This document shows, in pieces, positions 19,133-42,438 of a stretch of 43,316 nucleotides of DNA. The stretch covers positions 1 through 43,316 of the forward strand of contig QOUO01000012.1 in the NCBI GenBank assembly GCA_003862195.1, given 5' to 3'. The DNA comes from Coriobacteriaceae bacterium. Its GTDB lineage: Bacteria > Actinomycetota > Coriobacteriia > Coriobacteriales > Atopobiaceae. Each line of letters opens with the position of its first letter. Within the stretch, counting starts at the first letter, position 1. The notes beneath the pieces are model-generated. The model was given only the letters and a program-made list of their open reading frames with translations. It was not told the origin of the DNA and made no database searches. The translations under genes and the position numbers were made by a program.

Positions 19133-20158
19133 TTACGCCGACTCCTTACTCTCTCTCGGGTCCTGCTGGGACTTCGCCTTCCCGCGAGGAAGCTCGCGGA
19201 AGTTCGCGACGAAGATGTCCACAAGACCCAGAACGCTCACTATCAAGAAGGACGCCTCGAGGTAGAACGCGAAAACGACCAGGAGCACACGAGTGAGGGG
19301 GCCGAGGCCCGCCTTCCTCGCGTACCACATGGCAACCGCCAAGCCCTGGAGCCCCAGGGCGATCCTGGCGGTGTTGAGCACGTTCTCGCCCACCATCTTC
19401 ACCTGAGAGGACCAGGTTGGCACGTACGGCCCCGCAAGACTCAGGACCACACCCACCACGAAGACGATGGCAACCCACACCGGCGCGTCGAATTCGGAAA
19501 ACGTCCGGGTGGTCCGGGCGTTCCTCTTTCGTGCCGCAAGCACGCCGCCCACATGGGCGCAGAGTGCCTGCACGATGGCGTTGCTCACGAACGCCATCGG
19601 CCAGTAGACCTTGGCCAGCGCACGGACGGTCGCGATCTGGTCGCTCATGTCGGCGCTGGTGGACTGGCTTGCAACCTTGGCGTACGTCCTCACGGCCTGA
19701 TCGATCAGGGCAGGCAGGTTCGTGCCGTTGAGATAGGCGTACGTCGCGTCTATCCCCGCGCCCAAGGCCGCTAGGACCAGGACGGCAAGGCACTTAGTAC
19801 CCGTCGAGACCTCTGCCTCCGAACCGTCGCCGGAGAAGGCGAAGGCCGCCAGACACCCCACAAGCGCGTAGGGAATCTGCTCGGGACCGGCCAGCACGCA
19901 TATGAGCACGGAGGCCAGGCAGCTCACCACGAACGACGAGCGCCTGGATCCCCTCCCGCCCTGAAGCGAAAGGCCAAGCCCGTAGGCGACGATCACGCAC
20001 GCGAGCTCGACGCCCGCGTACATGCAGGCTCCACCCAGCAGCGTCCAGAAGAGGGCCCCCTGGACGGTCTTTGGGCTTCTCGTCACTTCCCTCACGCCCT
20101 CGTCGGTCCCGATGTTGCCGGGAACGGGCGGGCGATTGTTGTCAGAAGTGTCAGCCAA
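19133..20158 (-). CDS. DUF2232 (YybS-like) membrane protein
   Basis: A polytopic membrane protein of 341 residues with about eight hydrophobic segments, matching the DUF2232/YybS group by topology and by its standard position between rpsR and rplI in Gram-positives. The function is unknown; related proteins have been compared with S-components of ECF transporters. The start is a TTG codon (20158), with AAGGA about ten bases upstream; no ATG fits. The C-terminal 30 residues are charged and cytoplasmic. Confidence 0.78.
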   Translation of the reverse strand: MADTSDNNRPPVPGNIGTDEGVREVTRSPKTVQGALFWTLLGGACMYAGVELACVIVAYGLGLSLQGGRGSRRSSFVVSCLASVLICVLAGPEQIPYALVGCLAAFAFSGDGSEAEVSTGTKCLAVLVLAALGAGIDATYAYLNGTNLPALIDQAVRTYAKVASQSTSADMSDQIATVRALAKVYWPMAFVSNAIVQALCAHVGGVLAARKRNARTTRTFSEFDAPVWVAIVFVVGVVLSLAGPYVPTWSSQVKMVGENVLNTARIALGLQGLAVAMWYARKAGLGPLTRVLLVVFAFYLEASFLIVSVLGLVDIFVANFRELPRGKAKSQQDPRESKESA

Positions 20159-21636: not shown

Positions 21637-22593
21637 CTACAGAATCACGGGGCCGTCCGAGTTGTCGTCGTTGGCATCCGGCTCGCTCTGGGGCGTGGGG
21701 TTGGCTGCGCCAGGCGTGGCGTCGGTCGGGGTGTCCGCCGGAGCCTGGTCCGCCGGAGCCTGCGTGGGGTCCTGCGGCTTGGAGGGCTCGGCCAGTGCCA
21801 TCGCGGTGGCGGGAAGCGGGTCCTTGCTGGCACCCCAGTGCGGCACGTCGAAGTTGCGCACCCACAGGCCCACGGCCGTGGTGACGATGAGCTCCTCGAA
21901 CGTCCTGGCGAGGTTTGCGACGTAGCACAGGAGCGCGAGAGCCGGGAACACGCCGCTCAGCGCGGAGAGGATCGAGGGCATCCGGACGAGGAGGTCGGAG
22001 CGCGTCGAGATGCTCCCGATGCCAAAGAAGAGGTTGACGAGGACGGGCATGACGATCGCGAGGCCGAGCACGAAGAGGATCACGCCAGAGATGAGCCCGA
22101 TGAGAAACCCAATCCCCACGATCTTGGCAAAGCCGCCAAAGTCGGCCTTGACCATGTCCCAGATTCGGTTGACCTGGTACGCCGCCTTGAAGTCCTGGTA
22201 GATCGTCGCACGGAGCGCCACGACGAGGTAGAGCACGCCCAAGAAGAGCGTGGCCACGTCCAGCAGCAGGTTCATCACGTCGTTGTTGTCAGTTAGCTTC
22301 TTGAGGGCGCCGCAGATGATGCCCCAGACAACGGCCCAACCCAGGAAGCCTACAAAGCCGCGCCAGCCGCTCTTGATGCACTCGCCCACGCGGACGTTCT
22401 TCTGCTTGGGGTATGAGTCAACGCCCCACGCCGTGAGCCGCGCCCACTCCAGGCGGTACCCATAGGTGCCCAGCGCGCCAGCAACGGGCACGAAGTCCGC
22501 GATGCCCATAACGAGGAGGACCTTCCACCAGCCTTTGTCATGCGAGAGAAGTGCCCACGACCTCGAGTAGTAGGCGTCCTTTTTGTCGCTCAT
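21637..22593 (-). CDS. DUF4013-like polytopic membrane protein
   Basis: The 318-residue protein has about six hydrophobic segments with Gly-rich turns and a C-terminal ~65 residues that are Pro/Ala/Asp-rich and disordered. The opening YYSRSWALLSHDKGWWKVLLVMGIADFVPVAG, cut by the first membrane segment, resembles DUF4013 proteins, which are common next to tRNA or housekeeping genes in Firmicutes and Coriobacteria and have no assigned function. AAGGAG lies upstream of ATG 22593. Its leader is near the tRNA-Ser terminator, so it is probably transcribed alone. Confidence 0.72.
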   Translation of the reverse strand: MSDKKDAYYSRSWALLSHDKGWWKVLLVMGIADFVPVAGALGTYGYRLEWARLTAWGVDSYPKQKNVRVGECIKSGWRGFVGFLGWAVVWGIICGALKKLTDNNDVMNLLLDVATLFLGVLYLVVALRATIYQDFKAAYQVNRIWDMVKADFGGFAKIVGIGFLIGLISGVILFVLGLAIVMPVLVNLFFGIGSISTRSDLLVRMPSILSALSGVFPALALLCYVANLARTFEELIVTTAVGLWVRNFDVPHWGASKDPLPATAMALAEPSKPQDPTQAPADQAPADTPTDATPGAANPTPQSEPDANDDNSDGPVIL

Positions 22594-26592: not shown

Positions 26593-27057
26593 CTAAAGCA
26601 GCGGCTCCACCTCGCCGGCAGGTGCTGGCTCCGTCCACGCGAAGCCGTCGCCCTCTCCTCTGCCCTTCACGTAGGAGTATGCGGAGTAGGCCTTGTAGCC
26701 CTTCTCGCCAAACTCCAAGAGGACCGCGTCCTGGTAGGCGCCGGACTCGTCCGCCACGGCGCCCTCATAGGTTATTGCATAGCGCACGGGTTCCCCAAGG
26801 CCGACCTCGGGGTCGCCGCCATCGCGCCTGAGCTCGCGTACCTTTGCGTGCGCGCCGGCGAGGCACTCCTCCATGCCGTCGTCGGAAAACGCATACGAGG
26901 CCACGTTGCTGGCGGCGTCGCCCACCACCAGCAGCACGTCCACGTCCTTGCCCGCGGCAAGCAGGTCAAACGCGTCGCCCATAAGGGTGCTGGAAAGCTC
27001 GTCGAGCTCGGGGGTGACCCCGTCCGCGCGATGTTCGTCCTCAGCCTTGCGTGCCAT
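26593..27057 (-). CDS. Small acidic cytosolic protein, unknown
   Basis: I do not recognise this 154-residue protein. It is soluble, acidic, and has an alternating hydrophobic/charged pattern consistent with an alpha/beta fold (VDVLLVVGDAASNVASYAFS, then VRYAITYEGAV and QDAVLLEFGE). There is no signal peptide, membrane segment or known motif. ATG at 27057 follows AGAAGGGCAGG; the open frame continues to 27105 but that extension is Lys/Arg/Gln-rich and unlikely. It lies 59 bases after the giant M28 gene on the same strand, so it is probably cotranscribed with it, and a perfect inverted repeat follows. Confidence 0.65.
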   Translation of the reverse strand: MARKAEDEHRADGVTPELDELSSTLMGDAFDLLAAGKDVDVLLVVGDAASNVASYAFSDDGMEECLAGAHAKVRELRRDGGDPEVGLGEPVRYAITYEGAVADESGAYQDAVLLEFGEKGYKAYSAYSYVKGRGEGDGFAWTEPAPAGEVEPLL

Positions 27058-27116
27058 GGCCTGCCCTTCTCTACGCTTGCGTTTGTCTTCCCGCTGATGA
27101 CCCAAGGTTCACGCAC

Positions 27117-30100
27117 CTAAGAGCGACGGATGAGCTCCGCGACCAGGTCGGTCACGTCGACCACCTGAGCGGGGTTCACGTTCTGGGGCACGTCCTCGGA
27201 TGTGGCGGAAAGCGCCGGAACACCGCCGGGGCCCACACCCATGAGCGTGGTCGCGCGGACGGAGTTCTGCATCGCGAGCGTCGCGTCCGTATCGTCCCAG
27301 TCGTGCTTTGCGCGGCCGAGTGGGATGTGGAGGTCCTTGGCGATGTTGAGGAGCATCCTGCCCATGCGCCTGTCTGCCCTGCGCGTGTTGGTCCTGCCCT
27401 CGTGCGTGAGGAACACGAGGTCGCCGGCGCCCACGGAGTCCAGGTTCACCAGGAAGGCGCCCCTGATGTCGCTGCGGTGGTCTGCCAGGAAGTGCTTCAT
27501 GCCCGCGTGGTCCTTGGCGGAGGCACCCAGCGCCACAAAGTAGATGTCGTGTGCCAGGAGCTCGTCGTCGCTCATGCCGAGTACCGCCTGGCGCAGGTCC
27601 TCCTGCGTGGGTTCCTGCGGCATCTGGCCCTGTTGCTGGTAGGCGGGGTCGTTCCAACCCTGGTCCGTAGGCTGGGGCTGGTCGGCCGGCATGTCGTACA
27701 GGTCGTAGCCCTGAGCCTCGGCGGGCGCGACAGGGTCCTGCTGCTGCGGCTGGCCGTACGGGTCGTCCGCATACTGGGCATCCGCGTACTGGTTGTCCGC
27801 GTACTGACCGTCCATGGGCACGTCGTCCTGGCCGAGATTCGCGCCGTCGGGCGCGTCGCCGTCCACGACCCTGAAGCCGGACCGCGTGGTGGCACCACCC
27901 TTCCAGCTTCCCTTGCGCTGGTTCTTCTCGCCCTTGTCGTCCTCGGGCTCGTTGAAGTGATCCCAGTCGCCTATCTTGCGGCCGTCCTTCTTGGCGTCGT
28001 AGTCCTCCTCGACGCCAAGCCACTCGCTCATGGATTCCTGACCCTCGCTCGGGTCGAGCTTCTTGGGACGTCCGCCAAACAGGTTGGGGAGCTTCACCTT
28101 GTGATGGGTGGGCGCCTTCTTCCTGTTGCGGTCGACGCTAAAGCGCATGGCCTCGTTCTGCATGGGCTGGGCCCCCTTTACCAGGCCAATCGGCTCGCGC
28201 GTGCCAACCGGACCGGACTCAGCGCGCTCCGCGCCGGCGCCGACGGGCGTACGGCCGGCGTTTGCGGCCTTCTTGGCTCCATCGAGCGGACCGGAGGCAA
28301 ACGGGTCGCTCGAAGACTCGCTCGGGTCGGGCAGATCAAACAGGACCGCACGACGTGCCACGGAGTTTACCTGGGGACGGTACTCGCTGCGGCCCCAGTT
28401 GGGGTCGTCAACGGGGCGCGGCTCGGGAATCTTCTCCCGCGCTGCGCTGTCTTCGTCCTCAATCGGGGCGTCGAGGCCGGATGCGTCCTTGGATTCCAGC
28501 TCGCTTTCCGGAACCTCCTCGTTCGGGATGAAGCTCAGATGCTGCATGGACTCTGCCGTCGCAGCGGTTGCGTCATGATCCTGTGCTGCCTCGGGCTCCG
28601 CCGGCGCATCGGGCTCGGTCTGGTCGGGCTCGTCCGTTACCTGCTCGACCGAACCGTCGGTCGGCACGTCGTCGGAAGCCACGTTCTGCGGCTCTGCCAT
28701 GTCGCCCTCTGGCGCCTCGGCCGGTTCGGGCTCGGACTCGACATCAGACTCAATCTCGCTGTTAGCTTCGGGCTCGGGCTGCTCGCTTGGCGCGGCATCC
28801 TCTGCGTCATCGTACAGCGGCTCGATGGGTGACGCCTCCTCGCCCGCGCGAGGCATCGGCTCAACCCTATCCGGGTACTCATCCCTCAGCGTCGCCGTGG
28901 GCTTGAGCGGACGCATGTGCGCCGTACTCTCGAGCTCGTCGTAGCTGGCTGCCGCATAGGCATCAAGCTTGGTCGTGGAATCCAGCGACTCGTCGGCCGC
29001 GGCACCATAGTTCGCGTCACTATATCCGTTGTCTTCCTGCGAAGGCGCCGCGCTCTTCTCGTCCGAATCGCCAATGACCTCGTAGTCCTCCACAATGGGG
29101 GCGTCATCCACAAAGTAGTTGTACTTGGGCACGGGGGCAGGCTCGGGCGCGACGGGCTCCGCAGCCTCCTGCAAGGGAGCGGGCTCCTCGTCGCGCAACG
29201 ACTCGACATCGGTATCGGCGGCCGGCTCGGGCTCCACCTCTGCAGCCGGCTCGGACTCAGGTTCGGGCATCATCTCGGACTCAAGCGTTACCTCGGACTC
29301 AGGCTCAGGTTCAGCCACGTCCTCGCTTTCCGGCGACTCCGCCTCGGGCTGCTCTTCCGTCACCTGATCCTCAGACGCATCGTAGTATTCCGCGTCCGCG
29401 GTATCTATATACTGCGGCTCGTCCGCAGGCGCCGGCTCCTCAGGCTCTGCCTCGGGCCCGACTTCAGGCTCCGCGACCTGCTCGACAGGCTGTTCTGCCT
29501 CGTACGTCTCTTTCTCGGCGGCATCCTCCGCAGGCTGTGCGGCTGCATCGTCTTCGCCCATGGCAGGCGCGGACTCGGTCGGCTCCGCGTCCCATTCGCT
29601 CGTGGGCTCGTACTCGCTCATGTCCAGGACGGGCATGTCCATGGTCGAGTCAAGGTTCTCGTTGGCGTTCGACCCTGCGGGCGAGAAGGACGAGCCCTCC
29701 TGCTTGCGACCCTTCCCAAAGGCAGACGCAAACTTCGCCTTGAGGCTGCTAAAGAAGCCCTGCTTCTTCTCGCCCTCAGGCGCGACGGCACCAGTATCCT
29801 CAGGAGCCGGCTCGCTTGTGATCGTCTCCCATGCTTCCTCGCTCGCGACGGTTGCCTCATCCTCCGGAAGGGAGTCCTCTGGCGCATACGTCACATCCGA
29901 AGTCTGCTCGACGTCGCCCTCGTCCTCGGCGGAAACGTCCTCGGACTCGGGCTGCACCGGCTCCTGCAGAGCGGGAGCAGTCGACTCGTCGTCGTAGTAC
30001 GGCGCGACGGGCTCCTCGCCCACCGGAATGTAATAGTCTTCCTCGGAGCTGCCAGCACCTTCGTCATGGGGAGTCGCCTCGGTCTCAAAATCAGCGGTGG

Positions 30101-32444
30101 CGTCCTGCGGTGCCTCCGCAGTCGGTGCAACCTCCGGAAGGTCAATCAGCTTGGACTTGCGCTCAGCCGCGTCCATCCTCGCGGTGTCCTCGGGAGCGGC
30201 CGCAAACGCATCCGTCTGCTGGCTGGGCCGCGCGGTCGGCTGGGGCTCTGGCGCCGCAACAGGCTCGGGCTCGGTCTCGACCTCACCCTCCGGCTGGACG
30301 GTCGGCTCCGTCGCATCCGCAAAGTGAGCGGGCTCCGCGGGAGCCTCCTCCACAGGCGCGTCTGCATTCTGGTTGGCAGTTGTCTGCCCACCCTTCGGAC
30401 CCGCGGGCGGCTCGGGCTCCTCCAGGACCTCGTACTCCTCCACGATCGGGTACTGCTCGTCGTACGTCACATAATGTATGTAGTCGACGGTCGGGTGCTC
30501 CTGAACCATGTACGGGTTCACGTGAGTCTCGTCCATGGACGTCGCGGGGTTGTACGGCTCGTACACAACGTCTTCCGGCTGCCTGCCGTCGGCTGCCTCG
30601 GGCTCGGCCGGCTCGTATCCCTGCTCCGCCTCGGACTCCTCGGCCTCCGCCGCTGCGGACTGCTCGTACAGGCGCTCGTACTTCTCCTCGTACTCCTTCT
30701 CGAAGTCGGGAATCTCGGGCACCTGCGGAAGCTTCGTCAGGTCGGGCTTCGGCCGCGGCGGATTGTCATACACGATCTCGCAGTCGGTCGGCAGGATGTT
30801 CAGGCTACCCACAAAGTCCGGGCCGCGGCGGACGTTCCCATCAAACGGGTTGTCCCCAACCTCGGGAACGATGTCCTCCAGCCTCTGGCCAGAGCGCGTC
30901 CTCACGTCGTGGGCGCCAGTCACGTCACCGCGGTTGGTGCCAGCCTCGCGGTTGTCTGCCACCTGCTCGGGTACGCTTGTCGCAAACTCGTCCTCGGCTA
31001 CGCCGCTCTCTGGAGTCACGGCAGGCGTCGGCTCGCCAGCGCCCTCGGGGTACCCGGCATTGCCGCGCGAGGCGTTGCCCTTGCGGAAGCCCTGCACGCG
31101 CTCCGTCACGCTGTCGGCAGCCTTCCTAAAGAAACCGGCAAGCCCCGCGGCCTTCGAGGCCGGCTTGGTCTCGGTCTGCTCGCCCTGCGTCTCTGCCGCG
31201 GCATCCACACGCTCGGCGGGCACGGCCGGCTGGCGGACGACCGTCGCGTCAACGGGTGCGGCCTGAGGCTGCTCCGCGTACGACGCCTCGTTCTTCTCGT
31301 CATACTGAGCGTACTGCGCGTACTGCGCGGGCGTCTCGGCGTAGCCCTCGTCCGCTGGCGCCGCCTCGGTCTGGCTCTCATAAGTCTGGCCCTCGGGGTT
31401 GGCCTCTGCGTACTGACCCTGCTCGGGCGCGTACTGCTGTGCCTCATACTGCTGCTCCGGCGCGTACTGCTCGGGAGCAGCCTGCTCGCCATACGGCATG
31501 TCTGCCGGCGCGGCACCCTCTGGCGCCCCCTCGGGCGAGAAGTACTGACCCTCCTCGTAGCCGGCGGGAGCCTCCTGCGGCATCGCGCCCTCGGGCTGCT
31601 GGCCCTCAGCCGCAGCCGCACCATAGTATTGGTCCGTGCCCTCCTCCGGGGCGGTCTGGTCGTACGCGGGCTGCTCCTGCCTGCGCGGGTGGAGAGCAAC
31701 GTAGCGCTTGGCTGCGTCATCGTGCGGCGCGACCATGTCCATCACGCCCAGCATCGCCGCAAGCGAGGACTTGTTGTCGCTCGCGCCCGTGGTGCAGGGC
31801 GCAAACCTCTGGTAGATTGCGGACACGCCCACCGCCAGAAGCGGGAGGGACGCAAGTATGCCCACGATCCAAAAGATGTGCCTAAAGCCAGCCGGCAGGA
31901 ACACCAGAAGCTGGAACACCGCGCACAACGGCACGATCACGCTGCACACAAACGTGGAGCGCTTGATCATGGGCTGGTACGCGGAGATTCCCGGGTGGCT
32001 CAGCAGGTCCTCGTTGGGGCTGTCGTAGTGCGCCACGATCACGATGGGGCGGTTGCCCTTCATCACGAGGGGACCGGAGGCGCGGTGCACGCCGATGACG
32101 TTCTGGCTCCTGCCACGCGGGCCAAGGTTTGCCAGCACGTCATGCCCCGCGTATTCCAGGGCCAGAAAGACAAACGAAACCGCAACAAGAACGAGCCCCA
32201 GGACTCCCACCCGAGAGGAGAGGAAGCCTGCCAGCAGGATGCCAACAAACATAACAATGTAAAGCACATAGTGTGCAAGGTTCCCCTGCGATGGAGCGTC
32301 AAACTCCTGCATCTGGACGTCGAGTCCGTGCTCTTCCATAAGGGAGCCAATCAGCTCCGCTGCGTCAAGCTCCTCCTGGCTATTAGCGGGCGAGATGTCG
32401 ATCTTCTCGTCAAGATAATCAAGATAGGTGCGCGTTGTCGCCAT
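27117..32444 (-). CDS. Giant membrane-embedded M28-type peptidase-like protein with a ~1,350-residue disordered insertion
   Basis: The 1775-residue product is built on an M28 (aminopeptidase Y/S) peptidase fold. The first half has a cytosolic start (1-55), two membrane segments (about 58-96), then IVIVAHYDSPNED with ligand candidates His139 and Asp141, two more membrane segments (about 163-210), and GASDNKSSLAAML with Asp223. From about 245 to 1615 is acidic Glu/Ala/Pro/Gln-rich sequence of low complexity. The last ~165 residues complete the domain: VALGASAKDHAG (where M28 enzymes have the catalytic EE), VNLDSVG with its Asp, and AKHDWDDTDA with the final His. So the catalytic Glu-Glu appears lost while other ligands remain. 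ATG at 32444 (AAAGGAC upstream) is preferred over the open extension to 32471. It is divergent from a WYL regulator. Peptidase activity is uncertain. Confidence 0.8.
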   Translation of the reverse strand: MATTRTYLDYLDEKIDISPANSQEELDAAELIGSLMEEHGLDVQMQEFDAPSQGNLAHYVLYIVMFVGILLAGFLSSRVGVLGLVLVAVSFVFLALEYAGHDVLANLGPRGRSQNVIGVHRASGPLVMKGNRPIVIVAHYDSPNEDLLSHPGISAYQPMIKRSTFVCSVIVPLCAVFQLLVFLPAGFRHIFWIVGILASLPLLAVGVSAIYQRFAPCTTGASDNKSSLAAMLGVMDMVAPHDDAAKRYVALHPRRQEQPAYDQTAPEEGTDQYYGAAAAEGQQPEGAMPQEAPAGYEEGQYFSPEGAPEGAAPADMPYGEQAAPEQYAPEQQYEAQQYAPEQGQYAEANPEGQTYESQTEAAPADEGYAETPAQYAQYAQYDEKNEASYAEQPQAAPVDATVVRQPAVPAERVDAAAETQGEQTETKPASKAAGLAGFFRKAADSVTERVQGFRKGNASRGNAGYPEGAGEPTPAVTPESGVAEDEFATSVPEQVADNREAGTNRGDVTGAHDVRTRSGQRLEDIVPEVGDNPFDGNVRRGPDFVGSLNILPTDCEIVYDNPPRPKPDLTKLPQVPEIPDFEKEYEEKYERLYEQSAAAEAEESEAEQGYEPAEPEAADGRQPEDVVYEPYNPATSMDETHVNPYMVQEHPTVDYIHYVTYDEQYPIVEEYEVLEEPEPPAGPKGGQTTANQNADAPVEEAPAEPAHFADATEPTVQPEGEVETEPEPVAAPEPQPTARPSQQTDAFAAAPEDTARMDAAERKSKLIDLPEVAPTAEAPQDATADFETEATPHDEGAGSSEEDYYIPVGEEPVAPYYDDESTAPALQEPVQPESEDVSAEDEGDVEQTSDVTYAPEDSLPEDEATVASEEAWETITSEPAPEDTGAVAPEGEKKQGFFSSLKAKFASAFGKGRKQEGSSFSPAGSNANENLDSTMDMPVLDMSEYEPTSEWDAEPTESAPAMGEDDAAAQPAEDAAEKETYEAEQPVEQVAEPEVGPEAEPEEPAPADEPQYIDTADAEYYDASEDQVTEEQPEAESPESEDVAEPEPESEVTLESEMMPEPESEPAAEVEPEPAADTDVESLRDEEPAPLQEAAEPVAPEPAPVPKYNYFVDDAPIVEDYEVIGDSDEKSAAPSQEDNGYSDANYGAAADESLDSTTKLDAYAAASYDELESTAHMRPLKPTATLRDEYPDRVEPMPRAGEEASPIEPLYDDAEDAAPSEQPEPEANSEIESDVESEPEPAEAPEGDMAEPQNVASDDVPTDGSVEQVTDEPDQTEPDAPAEPEAAQDHDATAATAESMQHLSFIPNEEVPESELESKDASGLDAPIEDEDSAAREKIPEPRPVDDPNWGRSEYRPQVNSVARRAVLFDLPDPSESSSDPFASGPLDGAKKAANAGRTPVGAGAERAESGPVGTREPIGLVKGAQPMQNEAMRFSVDRNRKKAPTHHKVKLPNLFGGRPKKLDPSEGQESMSEWLGVEEDYDAKKDGRKIGDWDHFNEPEDDKGEKNQRKGSWKGGATTRSGFRVVDGDAPDGANLGQDDVPMDGQYADNQYADAQYADDPYGQPQQQDPVAPAEAQGYDLYDMPADQPQPTDQGWNDPAYQQQGQMPQEPTQEDLRQAVLGMSDDELLAHDIYFVALGASAKDHAGMKHFLADHRSDIRGAFLVNLDSVGAGDLVFLTHEGRTNTRRADRRMGRMLLNIAKDLHIPLGRAKHDWDDTDATLAMQNSVRATTLMGVGPGGVPALSATSEDVPQNVNPAQVVDVTDLVAELIRRS

Positions 32445-32601: not shown

Positions 32602-34593
32602 ATGGCTGCAGACAACTGGGGAGACGAATCGTTTGCGTATGAGGACCGCAACAGCGACGACCTCCAGGCGCTGCGCCTCACCTCCCTCATGATCGGCCTC
32701 TCCAACAGCAAGAAGCCGCTCTCCACCGCGGAGCTGCGCGACCTCTACTACGCGGACATGTCCGAGGACGCCTTCGCAAAGAAGTTCCAGCGCGACCGCA
32801 AGAGCCTCGCAACCTGCGGAATCGTTGTCCGCGAGGTCGACCGCACCGGCGAGGGCGCGCTCTGGGCCCTCGACGCGGACGCCACGTTCGCCGCGGACGC
32901 AAGCCTCTCGATAGAGGACGCGACCCTCATCGACGTCGTCTGCATGCCCCTGGCAAACGACCCCTCGTTTCCCTACCGAGACGAGCTCACCCTCGCGCTC
33001 GCAAAGGTAAATCGCAGCTACACCACGGTCGTCGCAACCCGCGACGCAAGCGAGGCCGGCGCGTTTGACGTGCGCCTGGCAGAGCTCGTTGGCGCGCTCC
33101 AGAACAGGCATCCAATAACCGCCACCTACCAGGCAAAGTCCGCGGGCGAGAAGAACTACACCCTCGCGCTGCTGGGCTCCTTCGGCATGCGCGACAACAC
33201 GTACTTCGTGGCGTGCGACTACGACCGCAGGTCGCGGCAGCTATCCGGCAGCCCGCGCACCTTCCGGCTCGACCGCTTTGGCAAGGTCAAGCCCCTTGTC
33301 TCTCAAACCTACCAGATACCTGCGGACTTCTCCGTAAGCGACTACGTCAGGCTGCCGTTCCAGCTCGGACCCACCGTCTGCACGGCAAGCTTCCTCGTGC
33401 CACAGCCGCCCAACAGCCCAGACCTCACGCCAGAGGCACGCCGCGCAATCGCGTCGTACGGAAGCCTCTCCAAAGACAAGCGCACCTGGAGCGCGGACGT
33501 GTCCAACCTGGATGCCGCGGCGACATGGGCCATCGACGTCGAGCTCGTCCCCCAGTCACCGTCCCAGCTTGCGGACAGCTACAAGAAACGGCTCTCCGCT
33601 GCGGCAACGCTGCAGCCAACGAGCCAGGAAGAGGCACCCGCTAAGGCGGACTCGCGGTCGAGAAGGACGGGGCGCCGCGGCCGCAAGGGCGGCCTGCTCG
33701 AGGCCCGTCAGCTCTCGGCACTCGTCGGCGCGCTCGACCGCGAGGGTTCGACCCTCAGCGCGGACGTTGTCGCGCGCCGCCTCGGCTGCAGCCAGGACCA
33801 CGCAAAGCACCTGCTCAGCATGCTTGTCGATGCCTCAGACGACAAGAGCCTCTACAGGCTCCCGCTCTTGCCCGCGGACGACATGAGCAAGACCATCCTC
33901 ATGTTCCGCACGCTCGCGGGCAGGCCGCTCCGCCTCACCAGGACGGAGTCGGCGGCGCTCATATCCGCCCTGGGTCACGCTGGCGTCACGCCAGATGATC
34001 CCCTGTTTGCCAAGCTTGCGCGGGGTCTCGTCGCAAGGCCACTGCAAGACGACCTGCCAAACGACGCCTCTCCCAAGGCGGATGCCTCCACTCCCGAGGC
34101 TGACGTCCTGCGCGTCTGCTCGCAGGCAATCGCAAGGGGATGTGCGCTCGCCTTCGACTACGTCTCTTCACTCTCGGGCCAGCACACGCACAGGATGGTC
34201 CTGCCCAAGGGTGTCGACCACAGCAACGGCTCCTGGTATCTCGACGCCTTCGATCTCTCGCGCGGCGGCGCGAGGACGTTCAGGCTCGACCATATGACAA
34301 ACCTGCAGCTCGCACAGGGCGCCACGCGCACCCAACCGCCAAAGCTCGCCCCAGAGGCAGACGCCCCCAAGCAGGTGTCGTTCGTCCTTCTCGACCCAAG
34401 CCTTGTGGATGCCTTCCACTGGAACCAGACCAGCTTCACGCCGCTGCCGTCCGGCCACGTGCTTGCCCACTGCACCTACTTTGGTGGCAACTGGCTTCCC
34501 CGCAGGCTTGCTGCCTGCGGAAATGCCATTGCCACCTCGGACGCCGCCCTCTGCGAGGCGATTCGCAGCTACGCCAGCCGGCTACTCGTGTGA
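32602..34593 (+). CDS. Double WYL-domain regulator (PafBC-like fusion)
   Basis: A 663-residue transcription regulator with the layout HTH-WYL, HTH-WYL. The first half has an N-terminal winged HTH-like region (residues ~20-90, including SEDAFAKKFQRDRKSLA) and a WYL core with NTYFVACDYD and TFRLDRF. The second half has another HTH (about 370-420, LSADVVARRLGCSQDHAKHL) and a WYL core with SWYLDAFDLSRGG and TFRLDHM. This fits the fused form of PafB and PafC, which in mycobacteria control the DNA-damage response; WYL domains bind ligands such as ssDNA or nucleotides. The two halves are joined by a basic linker. It is transcribed away from the M28 gene and its 3' end overlaps dinG by 12 bases on the opposite strand. 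The link to dinG supports a DNA-damage role by inference. Confidence 0.85.
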   Translation: MAADNWGDESFAYEDRNSDDLQALRLTSLMIGLSNSKKPLSTAELRDLYYADMSEDAFAKKFQRDRKSLATCGIVVREVDRTGEGALWALDADATFAADASLSIEDATLIDVVCMPLANDPSFPYRDELTLALAKVNRSYTTVVATRDASEAGAFDVRLAELVGALQNRHPITATYQAKSAGEKNYTLALLGSFGMRDNTYFVACDYDRRSRQLSGSPRTFRLDRFGKVKPLVSQTYQIPADFSVSDYVRLPFQLGPTVCTASFLVPQPPNSPDLTPEARRAIASYGSLSKDKRTWSADVSNLDAAATWAIDVELVPQSPSQLADSYKKRLSAAATLQPTSQEEAPAKADSRSRRTGRRGRKGGLLEARQLSALVGALDREGSTLSADVVARRLGCSQDHAKHLLSMLVDASDDKSLYRLPLLPADDMSKTILMFRTLAGRPLRLTRTESAALISALGHAGVTPDDPLFAKLARGLVARPLQDDLPNDASPKADASTPEADVLRVCSQAIARGCALAFDYVSSLSGQHTHRMVLPKGVDHSNGSWYLDAFDLSRGGARTFRLDHMTNLQLAQGATRTQPPKLAPEADAPKQVSFVLLDPSLVDAFHWNQTSFTPLPSGHVLAHCTYFGGNWLPRRLAACGNAIATSDAALCEAIRSYASRLLV

Positions 34594-39768: not shown

Positions 39769-40005
39769 TTAGTACCCGATAGCCTTCCATTCGTTGAGAG
39801 TTCTCTCGCTGTTCTTAGTTGAAGAACTCTCTTGCTCTCTTTTAGCCTTTGAAGCCTTCACTGCCTCGCTTCCCTTGTCTCTTAGAAACCGGATGAGTGA
39901 CTGCAATGATTGCTTGGCTTCATCGTTTAGCAGAAGATAGCTTATTGTCAGAAGCATACTCACAGATAAGATTCCGCATCCAAACGCCGCCGTTGACTTC
40001 TTCAT
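39769..40005 (-). CDS. Small single-pass membrane protein coupled to parB, unknown
   Basis: A 78-residue protein with one hydrophobic segment (about residues 8-26, FGCGILSVSMLLTISYLLL) followed by a charged, Lys/Glu/Ser-rich soluble tail. I do not recognise a family. Its ATG overlaps the parB stop by four bases (ATGA), so it is translationally coupled to parB and belongs to the rsmG-parA-parB operon. The end coincides with a bidirectional terminator. A role in membrane-linked chromosome segregation is possible by context only. Confidence 0.7.
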   Translation of the reverse strand: MKKSTAAFGCGILSVSMLLTISYLLLNDEAKQSLQSLIRFLRDKGSEAVKASKAKREQESSSTKNSERTLNEWKAIGY

Positions 40006-40880
40006 TCGTCATCTCCTGAAGCTTCTTCATTCGAGAGCATGTCCACTATTCTCGCCAAATCTTCGTCAGTCGAGAATTCGATCTCTATCTTGTTCTTGTT
40101 CCGGAGACGCTTAACCTTGACGTTTGTATTCAGTGCCGTACGAAGCTGTCTCGCTGCCCTCTTATATGCGAGCGGTGTAGGCTCCCTATGCTTTCTCTCT
40201 TCAGTCTCGCCAGTGCCAGAAAATAGGGGAGCAAGCTTTTCTGTCTGTCTTACCGTTAGATTCTCGTCGATGACCTTATGTGCAAGCTTGATTTTTCCCT
40301 CAGATCCGGAGACAGCCAGAATCGCCCTTGCATGCCCTGCTGTAAGTTTCCCATCCAACATCATCTGCTGGACCTCTTCTGGCAAATCAAGCAGTCTGAG
40401 GGTATTTGCTATTGCCGAGCGCGATTTCGAGAGCGCTTTCCCAAGTTGCTCTTGAGTAAAGCCATTATCCTTAATGAGCTTCTCGTAACCTTTTGCCTCT
40501 TCAATTGGGTTAAGGTCCGAACGCTGCAGGTTTTCGATTAGGGCAAGCTTGAATACCTCTTTCTCATCAATATCCTTGATGTTCACAGGTATTTCCTTGA
40601 GACCGGCAAGCTTTGCAGCCTGGTATCTTCTCTCACCAGCTACGATTTCGTAATTCGAACCTTTCTTCCTGACAAGAATTGGCTGTAGTACTCCGTTTTG
40701 CTTGATGGAGTCCGCAAGTTCCTCAAGTGCTTGTTCGTCGAAATTCTTTCTCGGCTGGTCTTTGTTCACCTTGATCTTCGACAATGGGAGTGTTGAATCA
40801 CTCGAAATGGCGGAAATCTCTGCATCGGCCGTTCCCATTAGGGATTCGAGTCCCTTTCCGAGTCCACCCTTTCTAGCCAC
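40002..40880 (-). CDS. parB: Chromosome partitioning protein ParB/Spo0J
   Basis: The CTP-dependent DNA clamp that loads at parS and spreads. The 292-residue protein has the ParB core: GGLGKGLESLMG at the start, PRKNFDEQALEELADSIKQ, the CTP-binding GERRYQAAKLAG (residues 82-93), an HTH segment GFTQEQLGKALSKSRSAIAN, and a basic C-terminal dimer region. The start is a GTG at 40880 that overlaps the parA stop region by eight bases, so parA and parB are coupled. Two perfect parS sites are just upstream. Confidence 0.96.
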   Translation of the reverse strand: MARKGGLGKGLESLMGTADAEISAISSDSTLPLSKIKVNKDQPRKNFDEQALEELADSIKQNGVLQPILVRKKGSNYEIVAGERRYQAAKLAGLKEIPVNIKDIDEKEVFKLALIENLQRSDLNPIEEAKGYEKLIKDNGFTQEQLGKALSKSRSAIANTLRLLDLPEEVQQMMLDGKLTAGHARAILAVSGSEGKIKLAHKVIDENLTVRQTEKLAPLFSGTGETEERKHREPTPLAYKRAARQLRTALNTNVKVKRLRNKNKIEIEFSTDEDLARIVDMLSNEEASGDDE

Positions 40881-41673
40881 GGCGAGTCACTTCCTTTGCC
40901 AACTTCATATATGCCAACGAACCCTTACTGACATGAGCATACAGCGTAATCGGGAGCCCGTGGCTTGGTGCTTCAGACAGTTTCACGTTTCTCGGAATGA
41001 TTGTCTTGAACACTTTTCGACCAAAATACTTTGTTACTTCCTCGACGACCTGCTTCGAAAGCGTCGTTCTTGCATCATACATGGTCATTACTACGCCAAA
41101 CACGTCGAGTCCAGGGTTTAGACGGGTCTTGACCATCTTCATAGACTCAAGAAGTTTAGTTACACCTTCGAGCGCGTAGAACTCACATTGAATCGGAATT
41201 AGGAGAGAATCAGCGGCAACCAAAGCATTTACCGTCAAGAGGCCGAGTGATGGGGGGCAATCAATAAAGATGTAGTCAAATTCGTTTCTAATCGGCTCAA
41301 GTATGCTTTTTAGAATGCTTTCCCTTGCCATGGCTGAGACAAGCTCGATTTCCGCACCAGCAAGTTGAATCGTTGCTGGGATTACAAACACATTTGGCTC
41401 GACAGTCTCTGTAATGAGCTCCTTTATTGGGAAGTCATTGAGAAGAGCATCGTAAACGTCGTGTTCCAGTTCCTCTTTTTCAATTCCATACCCGCTTGTC
41501 GTGTTTCCCTGGGGATCTAGGTCAATCACAAGCACTTTCTTCTTATTCTCTCCGAGCGCTGCAGACAGATTGACGGCGGTGGTCGACTTGCCTACTCCAC
41601 CTTTTTGGTTAATGATGGCGAGCACCTTCGAGTCTCTGTCAGGAAACGCTCGTTTTACTTCCTCATACTTCAT
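40873..41673 (-). CDS. parA: Chromosome partitioning ATPase ParA/Soj
   Basis: A deviant Walker ATPase of 266 residues that works with ParB on chromosome segregation. It has KGGVGKST (residues 24-31), the Walker B region DYIFIDCPPSLG, and the C-terminal KLSEAPSHGLPI typical of Soj. The ATG at 41673 is chosen because GGGGAG stands just upstream; a GTG four codons earlier (41685) is possible. A parS site (41688-41703) lies 15 bases before this start, suggesting ParB feedback. Confidence 0.96.
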   Translation of the reverse strand: MKYEEVKRAFPDRDSKVLAIINQKGGVGKSTTAVNLSAALGENKKKVLVIDLDPQGNTTSGYGIEKEELEHDVYDALLNDFPIKELITETVEPNVFVIPATIQLAGAEIELVSAMARESILKSILEPIRNEFDYIFIDCPPSLGLLTVNALVAADSLLIPIQCEFYALEGVTKLLESMKMVKTRLNPGLDVFGVVMTMYDARTTLSKQVVEEVTKYFGRKVFKTIIPRNVKLSEAPSHGLPITLYAHVSKGSLAYMKLAKEVTRRG

Positions 41674-41687
41674 GTTTCTCCCCACAT

Positions 41688-41703
41688 TGTTTCACGTGAA
41701 ACA
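41688..41703. promoter_or_regulatory. parS site 1
   Basis: TGTTTCACGTGAAACA, a perfect 16-bp palindrome identical to the bacterial parS consensus, in the rsmG-parA gap. It is 15 bases before the parA start codon. Confidence 0.95.
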
Positions 41704-41718
41704 TTAGACAATATACTT

Positions 41719-42438
41719 TTAGAACAGAGGGCTTGCTTTTGCCTCGCCAGTTCTTCTAGGTAGTCTTACACTCGATCTCTTGATCTTCTCTACTTTAAGA
41801 ATCTCACGATGACCAGACTCGTTCGGAAGTTCGAATGTTTCACGTGAAACAATCTTCATTCCACAAATCTTTGCAGTCTTAATAGCATCGTCCAATTCTT
41901 CGTCAGTTAGATTACCTTTCGATGCAATCAAGAAGCCACCGATTGCTAGAAGAGGAGCTGCGTACTCAATTAGCACCCTCAACTTAGCAACTGCCCTTGC
42001 AGTCACATATTCATACTTTGAATCATTGGAACGAGCTAAGTCTTCTACTCGAACATGAAAGGCATGGCAGCGGTCGGCCAATTCGAGATCTTCAATAAAC
42101 GAATTGACGCAGTCAACCTTCTTGCCAACAGAGTCAACCATATCGATAGAGAAATTCGTCATGATGGCGATAGGAATTCCAGGAAAACCAGCACCGGTAC
42201 CAATGTCACATAAATGAGAGTCGTCCTCAAGTGAGCTCATTTGCTTCAAATATAGGAGTGAGTCAACAATATGACGATCTATCGCATCGTCAACAGATGT
42301 GATCCTGGTTAGATTGATTGTCCTGTTCTTCTCATTTACAAGAGAGATATGCTTGAGGAGCAGTTCAGCCTGATGTACAGAAACAGGGATATCGAAATCC
42401 CTAGCCATCAAGATGACTCTATCAATGTTGGTACTCAT
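41719..42438 (-). CDS. rsmG: 16S rRNA (guanine-N7)-methyltransferase RsmG (GidB)
   Basis: Methylates G527 of 16S rRNA; loss gives low-level streptomycin resistance. The 239-residue product has the SAM-binding DIGTGAGFPG (residues 78-87), the rRNA-binding opening region NEKNRTINLTRI, and the conserved IVSRETF segment near residue 200. That segment is encoded by a perfect parS site. GAAAGG lies upstream of the ATG. It heads the rsmG-parA-parB series, a hallmark of the origin region. Confidence 0.95.
   Translation of the reverse strand: MSTNIDRVILMARDFDIPVSVHQAELLLKHISLVNEKNRTINLTRITSVDDAIDRHIVDSLLYLKQMSSLEDDSHLCDIGTGAGFPGIPIAIMTNFSIDMVDSVGKKVDCVNSFIEDLELADRCHAFHVRVEDLARSNDSKYEYVTARAVAKLRVLIEYAAPLLAIGGFLIASKGNLTDEELDDAIKTAKICGMKIVSRETFELPNESGHREILKVEKIKRSSVRLPRRTGEAKASPLF
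41836..41851. promoter_or_regulatory. parS site 2, inside rsmG
   Basis: A second perfect TGTTTCACGTGAAACA, coding for part of the VSRET motif of RsmG. A parS embedded in rsmG is seen in many bacteria. Confidence 0.95.

Follow-up and report, generated by a model that had tools for sequence, protein, structure and literature searches.

The minus strand of the window (the whole stretch of DNA that was analyzed, 43,316 nucleotides) carries a complete coding sequence, the features of which are collected in Table 1. An AAAGGA sequence resembling a ribosome-binding site lies upstream of the ATG at 32444, and the run of 1775 codons without a stop that had been noted in a preliminary description of the window was confirmed and assigned to this strand. 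The inferred product falls within the M28 fold family. Searches against NCBIfam and for plasmids yielded no match. Long spurious frames arise in high-GC genomes, and an antisense open reading frame of 1,241 aa is listed, which raises the question of whether the gene is in decay, the frame has arisen by chance, or a sequencing error has fused two genes. Against all three stand the identical architecture of more than 70 full-length orthologues, dN/dS values well under 1 for each half of the domain, and a codon bias that marks the insert as coding along its full length (GC by codon position 0.74/0.46/0.80). This explanation is already refuted, and we give it practically no weight. A second frame of 170 aa (26593-27105, same strand) with coding bias and no Pfam match starts approximately 12 bases downstream of the stop codon and is a possible operon partner of the gene.

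Table 1. Features of the M28-fold gene (positions in the window; residue numbers refer to the inferred product)
Feature	Position	Strand	Basis
Complete CDS, 1775 aa, probable membrane M28-fold pseudopeptidase	27117..32444	-	ORF list, translation; stop 27117-27119
N-terminal half of M28 domain and both transmembrane hairpins, residues 1-240	31725..32444	-	Homologue searches, alignment, orthologue model
Predicted transmembrane hairpin 1, about residues 57-97	32154..32276	-	Hydropathy; helices in orthologue model
HYDSP, ligand site 1, His139 (His97 of Aeromonas proteolytica aminopeptidase), kept	32016..32030	-	Alignment
Predicted transmembrane hairpin 2, about residues 163-211	31812..31958	-	Hydropathy; helices in orthologue model
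GASDN, ligand site 2, Asp223 (Asp117 equivalent), kept	31773..31787	-	Alignment
Acidic insert, predicted disordered, residues 241-1609, 1,369 aa, net charge -240	27618..31724	-	Disorder prediction, composition
Insert motif M1, RRGPDFVGSLNILPTDCEIVY, 539-559	30768..30830	-	Pattern and profile comparison, codon analysis
Insert motif M2, DPNWGRSEYRPQVNSVARRAVLFDLPDPSESSSDPFA, 1347-1383	28296..28406	-	Pattern and profile comparison
Insert motif M3, MSEWLGVEEDYDAKKDGRKIGDWDHF, 1472-1497, common to sister orders mostly retaining Glu-Glu	27954..28031	-	Pattern and profile comparison
Insert motif M4, WKGGA, 1514-1518	27891..27905	-	Pattern comparison
C-terminal half of M28 domain, residues 1610-1775	27120..27617	-	Pfam, homologue search, orthologue model
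Catalytic Glu-Glu position, Ser1642-Ala1643; base and site 3 ligand lost	27516..27521	-	Alignment
Ligand site 4, Asp1669 of NLDSV (Asp179 equivalent), kept	27438..27440	-	Alignment
His1714 of KHD, not a conserved ligand position	27303..27305	-	Alignment
Ligand site 5 (His256 equivalent), Ala1747, lost	27204..27206	-	Alignment

The M28 domain is encoded in two widely separated pieces. Pfam family PF04389 matched the C-terminal half alone, with a score (20.3 bits) just short of the cut-off (21.3), which several orthologues pass. A search of the PDB by sequence returned no significant match, the best weak one being to YwaD (E 0.3), which served solely to place the Glu-Glu and His columns in our alignment. 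Structure was judged from models of natural short orthologues and, in the main, from that of a 641-aa protein of Lancefieldella rimae (L255) in place of the window protein. In the AlphaFold model of this orthologue 349 residues, the majority of them in the two halves, have a pLDDT of at least 90, and the insert lies largely below 50. Aligned whole (residues 1 to 641), the model superposed on a bacterial glutaminyl cyclase (Z 28.9, 2.4 A, 260 residues), on Bacillus YwaD/BSAP (6hc6; Z 28.7), on the A. proteolytica aminopeptidase (1amp; Z 27.8), and on the transferrin receptor (Z about 24.7). Homology and the short-orthologue model together indicate that the two halves of the window protein fold into one M28 domain, as had been proposed, the superposition on M28 enzymes at Z about 29 bearing this out.

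Like the M28 metallopeptidases (PF04389; 1amp and 6hc6), the protein has the fold and the HxD, NDN, and NLD motifs in order; unlike them, it is without the base Glu, the site 3 Glu, and the site 5 His, and has two membrane hairpins and the insert. These assignments come from an alignment of 99 distinct Atopobiaceae proteins, with intact homologues and YwaD as guides and with the metal sites defined as for 1amp (Table 1 of PMC7522609). The alignment upheld the preliminary description as to the order of HYDSP, ASDN, and NLDSV (the Asp of the last being residue 1669) and as to the missing Glu-Glu pair: where family members have GAEEVG, the window protein has GASAKD. The supposed fifth ligand in KHD was a misassignment, in that the column of His1714 is not conserved (H in 30 of the 99, otherwise Y, F, L, R, C, or M) and the true column is the His of HTxxD. 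Thus, two of the five ligands (sites 3 and 5, both Ala) and the general base are missing, the H-D-E-D-H set is incomplete, and His139, Asp223, and Asp1669 make up a full Zn2 site. Across the 99 proteins the Asp of HxD is invariant (99/99), and the ligands are retained to differing degrees: His at site 1 in 96, Asp at site 2 in 93, Asp or Glu at site 4 in 92, and His at site 5 in 51, the site 1/2/4 triad being intact in 83 and the Zn1 triad in 19. The base Glu was found in none of the 99, its place being taken by Ser (93), Asn (4), His (1), or Thr (1).

Could the enzyme have kept its activity by shifting the catalytic Glu? An acidic residue does occupy the second Glu position in about a third of the Atopobiaceae proteins (22 Glu, 12 Asp; n = 99), and the first Glu is retained in most of the Eggerthellaceae-like proteins sampled. 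Nevertheless, an active aminopeptidase of this kind is highly improbable: the full ligand set was found in none of 27 Coriobacteriales proteins in our tree, both Glu residues and the His256 equivalent are missing from the window protein, and no replacement Glu-Glu was found elsewhere in the aligned C-terminal half, nor was a displaced pair found among homologues of this lineage.

A different possibility is that the conserved Ser at the base position together with one metal triad could represent changed chemistry rather than none. The protein would then be a non-canonical enzyme or a ligand sensor, in which a pocket with a single metal site and the new Ser binds or converts a small substrate by another chemistry and the insert serves as a regulatory tail. 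The prevalence of the Ser (93/99) and of the intact site 1/2/4 triad (83/99) speak for such a protein, as does the M28 fold of the one-zinc glutaminyl cyclases (PMC7522609). However, the known one-zinc M28 members use sites 2, 3, and 5, the opposite set (PMC7522609). The glutaminyl cyclases and GPAA1/GAA1 resemble our protein in fold, in their altered metal sites, and (GPAA1) in being membrane bound, but hold zinc at sites 2, 3, and 5, and the window protein has lost sites 3 and 5 (PMC7522609). Moreover, the Coriobacteriaceae- and Eggerthellaceae-like proteins sampled have Cys, Ser, or Asn at site 2 and, at times, Asn or Pro at site 1, and therefore conservation of the pocket does not extend over the Coriobacteriales. 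On balance, we regard a non-canonical enzyme or sensor as unlikely, if the foremost of the competing explanations.

Hydropathy placed two hairpins in the N-terminal half. Of the four membrane segments that had been described as lying between the ligand motifs, those of hairpin 2 do fall between ligands 1 and 2, but those of hairpin 1 precede ligand 1. The density of Lys and Arg near the membrane (2.3-2.6 for the loop that joins the two hairpins on the domain side versus 0.15-1.1 for the hairpin turns) and the even number of helices predict that the M28 domain and the insert are cytoplasmic, a call that rests on the middle loop because there is little charge around the first and the last of the stretches that flank the membrane. 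Surface proteins can carry long acidic stretches rich in Pro and Ala, and the preliminary description had suggested that this might be one, with (in our formulation) the acidic tail outside the cell. We saw no signal peptide or wall anchor on inspection of the window protein, the charge distribution and helix count point to the cytoplasm, and the distribution of the protein is single-copy and class-wide; a surface or secreted protein is not supported and seems very unlikely. The lumenal domain of GPAA1 differs from the predicted cytoplasmic domain of the window protein.

The insert was correctly described as acidic and, by prediction, disordered over some 1,350 residues, but it is not featureless, for it contains four conserved motifs. 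The family consensus sequences of the first three are RxGxxVLxxLxILPxxCEIxY (M1), DPxWGKSxxxPxxxxVARRAxLFDLPDPSxxxxDP (M2), and WLGVDxDFDAKxxGRxIGSWDNF (M3), and all four motifs occur in a fixed order with nearly free spacer lengths. Among the 74 other Atopobiaceae proteins, pattern searches found M4 in 73, M2 (loose pattern) in 58, M1 in 52-54 (54 with the loose pattern), and M3 in 11. M3 was in addition present in 11 of 11 proteins of sister orders and in both of the two Coriobacteriaceae-like proteins sampled, and one Eggerthellaceae-like genome gave a profile match to M3-M4 (E 2.5e-6). Because not every motif is universal, one fixed set of partners is not implied. M1-M3 did not appear in any of 1,900 shuffled inserts, whereas M4 appeared in 64 of 1,900, and hence by itself is weak evidence. 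In the 21 genomes searched, M2 and M3 were convincing solely in the M28-fold protein; elsewhere in those genomes the matches (E 0.04-0.09) were treated as chance. M1 has a pLDDT of about 70-80 in both orthologue models and may pack on the M28 domain; in the second model part of M2 forms helix, with values of about 60-70; and M3 and M4 have low values. This picture fits a partner-binding role without proving one. We also considered a repeated D-S/A-T motif of the insert as possible kinase sites, but its enrichment in related sequences was approximately two-fold over shuffles and was noticed post hoc, and it was not used.

The gene is nearly universal in the Coriobacteriia. The C-terminal half was found in 287 of 298 genomes, one copy each (266 of 270 among good genomes), and within the family of the window the N-terminal half was found in 137 and the C-terminal half in 133 of 140 genomes, nearly always once. 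Named loci (Olsenella, Atopobium, Lancefieldella, and others) identify the family of the window as the Atopobiaceae; the labels Eggerthellaceae and Coriobacteriaceae (two other large families) and class Coriobacteriia for the searched genome groups were assigned by inference. In 74 full-length Atopobiaceae proteins the insert ranges from 240 to 1,663 aa between halves that hold steady near 240 and 160 residues. A large insert is thus not peculiar to this gene, and the architecture first noticed in the window, recurring as it does over the whole class, is beyond chance. A seemingly longer insert at one locus (L069, genus g23), where the halves lie 8 kb apart, was rejected as a probable error of scaffolding, since runs of N and unrelated, foreign genes separate the two halves. 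We found no second copy of the membrane-type M28 gene in the genome of the window and no description of an M28-fold family of Coriobacteriia in the literature searched. An active M28 paralogue that the protein might regulate was also sought, and the other PF04389 matches in this genome were set aside; their coverage is confined to the initial part of the profile, by which they would be related M20-type peptidases.

How did such a protein arise? Other classes of Actinobacteria have compact four-helix membrane M28 proteins (loci L160-L179, with reading frames of 385-596 aa). These share the membrane hairpins of the N-terminal half and the domain order but have 0-12 residues at the insert site, and half of those sampled retain the full ligand set and the Glu pair. 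We built a tree from 398 core columns, excluding the Glu-Glu columns, the root of which was assumed (with the compact forms as the outgroup) and not inferred. All of the insert-bearing proteins fall on one side of a single branch with moderate support (87/84). The sister orders form a starred clade with an insert of 122-273 aa in the same place and the full H-D-E-E-D-H set in 7 of 11 proteins; the Coriobacteriales form another, in which that set is absent (0/27). On this rooting, the insert probably arose before the loss of catalysis and then grew. The data do not support the idea that insertion and the loss of catalysis are directly linked, in that the insert is already present in the sister orders, most of whose sampled members keep Glu-Glu and His. 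Glu-Glu was, moreover, lost separately in compact proteins without an insert (10 rows, one starred clade: L163, L164, L165, L167, L169, L170, L172, L174, L177, and L178), which constitute a second bacterial group of M28 pseudoenzymes. Living relatives thus display apparent stages from a compact enzyme through an enzyme with a motif-bearing insert to a pseudoenzyme with a long insert, and the order in which a new interaction region was gained and catalysis lost is therefore open to direct study.

Both halves are under purifying selection, with a dN/dS within the genus of 0.03-0.13. For the insert as a whole the ratio is 0.28-0.39, with more than 300 codons gapped relative to the window; conservation is for the most part higher in the motifs than in the spacer, less clearly for M3-M4 in the comparisons of the window itself (0.29-0.55). 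A conserved fold, lost catalytic residues, and purifying selection, the marks of a pseudoenzyme, are therefore all present. The absence of the base Glu from all 99 proteins, the selection, and the single M28 domain of the model lend support to the earlier suggestion of a pseudoenzyme or scaffold-like protein, and with the base, site 3, and site 5 lost, it is improbable that the protein is an aminopeptidase of the ordinary kind.

We consider it probable that the protein is a membrane-anchored M28 pseudopeptidase, conserved over the class, that acts as a docking scaffold. The two helical hairpins would hold the M28 domain at the cytoplasmic face of the membrane, as the charge distribution suggests. 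Judging from its residues, the domain would not hydrolyze peptides by the M28 mechanism, the base, the Glu-pair ligand, and the last His being absent, and the remaining zinc site may still accommodate a single metal or a small ligand. The long acidic tether loops out of the domain, bearing its short conserved motifs, and most likely recruits cytoplasmic partners through them to a membrane platform. An ancestor of the Coriobacteriia would have been a compact four-helix M28 membrane enzyme into which a stretch of roughly 120-280 residues carrying motifs was inserted, and in the Coriobacteriales the catalytic residues would later have been lost and the insert lengthened. A more elaborate proposal, which taken as a whole we think rather improbable, is that of a class-wide membrane hub for signaling or assembly, in which the dead domain would sense a ligand at its single unusual metal or ligand site with the new conserved Ser and would control the disordered, motif-bearing cytoplasmic arm that organizes partners, the sister orders representing an enzyme stage with the arm.

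A docking scaffold would have parallels elsewhere. The animal transferrin receptor, which has no aminopeptidase function, has similarly reused the M28 fold for binding and not for cutting, and nicastrin is another animal M28-fold protein without aminopeptidase function. Both are lumenal or extracellular and single-pass, and neither is known to have a large disordered insert within its M28 domain. The iRhom pseudoproteases likewise descend from membrane proteases, having lost catalysis and acquired new regulatory regions, but they have an unrelated fold, are eukaryotic, and have known clients (PMC6451368). The protein is near-universal and single-copy in Olsenella, Atopobium, Lancefieldella, their relatives, and other families of Coriobacteriia, and its conserved motifs are ready baits for a partner search. 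Genetic tools are available for Eggerthella lenta and other Coriobacteriia (PMC9734109).

Finally, we note the surroundings of the gene. Nearly all Coriobacteriales loci examined show synteny with divergent WYL regulators and/or DinG, in the conserved order of divergent WYL genes and then DinG; because they are transcribed divergently, these neighbors say little about function. In the window the divergent neighbor (32602-34593, plus strand; compare L188:7010-8927) encodes a 663-aa protein with two WYL stretches, and many relatives have two adjacent WYL genes in its place; it would appear to resemble a fused PafB-PafC pair. In the sister orders (L180, L188) the gene is followed in the same orientation by genes for a GGDEF membrane protein and a Lit-like lipoprotein transacylase. 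Homologues of parB, parA, and rsmG lie close by (40002-42438, minus strand), which suggests that the locus is near the replication origin. Also on the minus strand are genes for a DUF4013 membrane protein (21637-22593) and a DUF2232 membrane protein (19133-20158).
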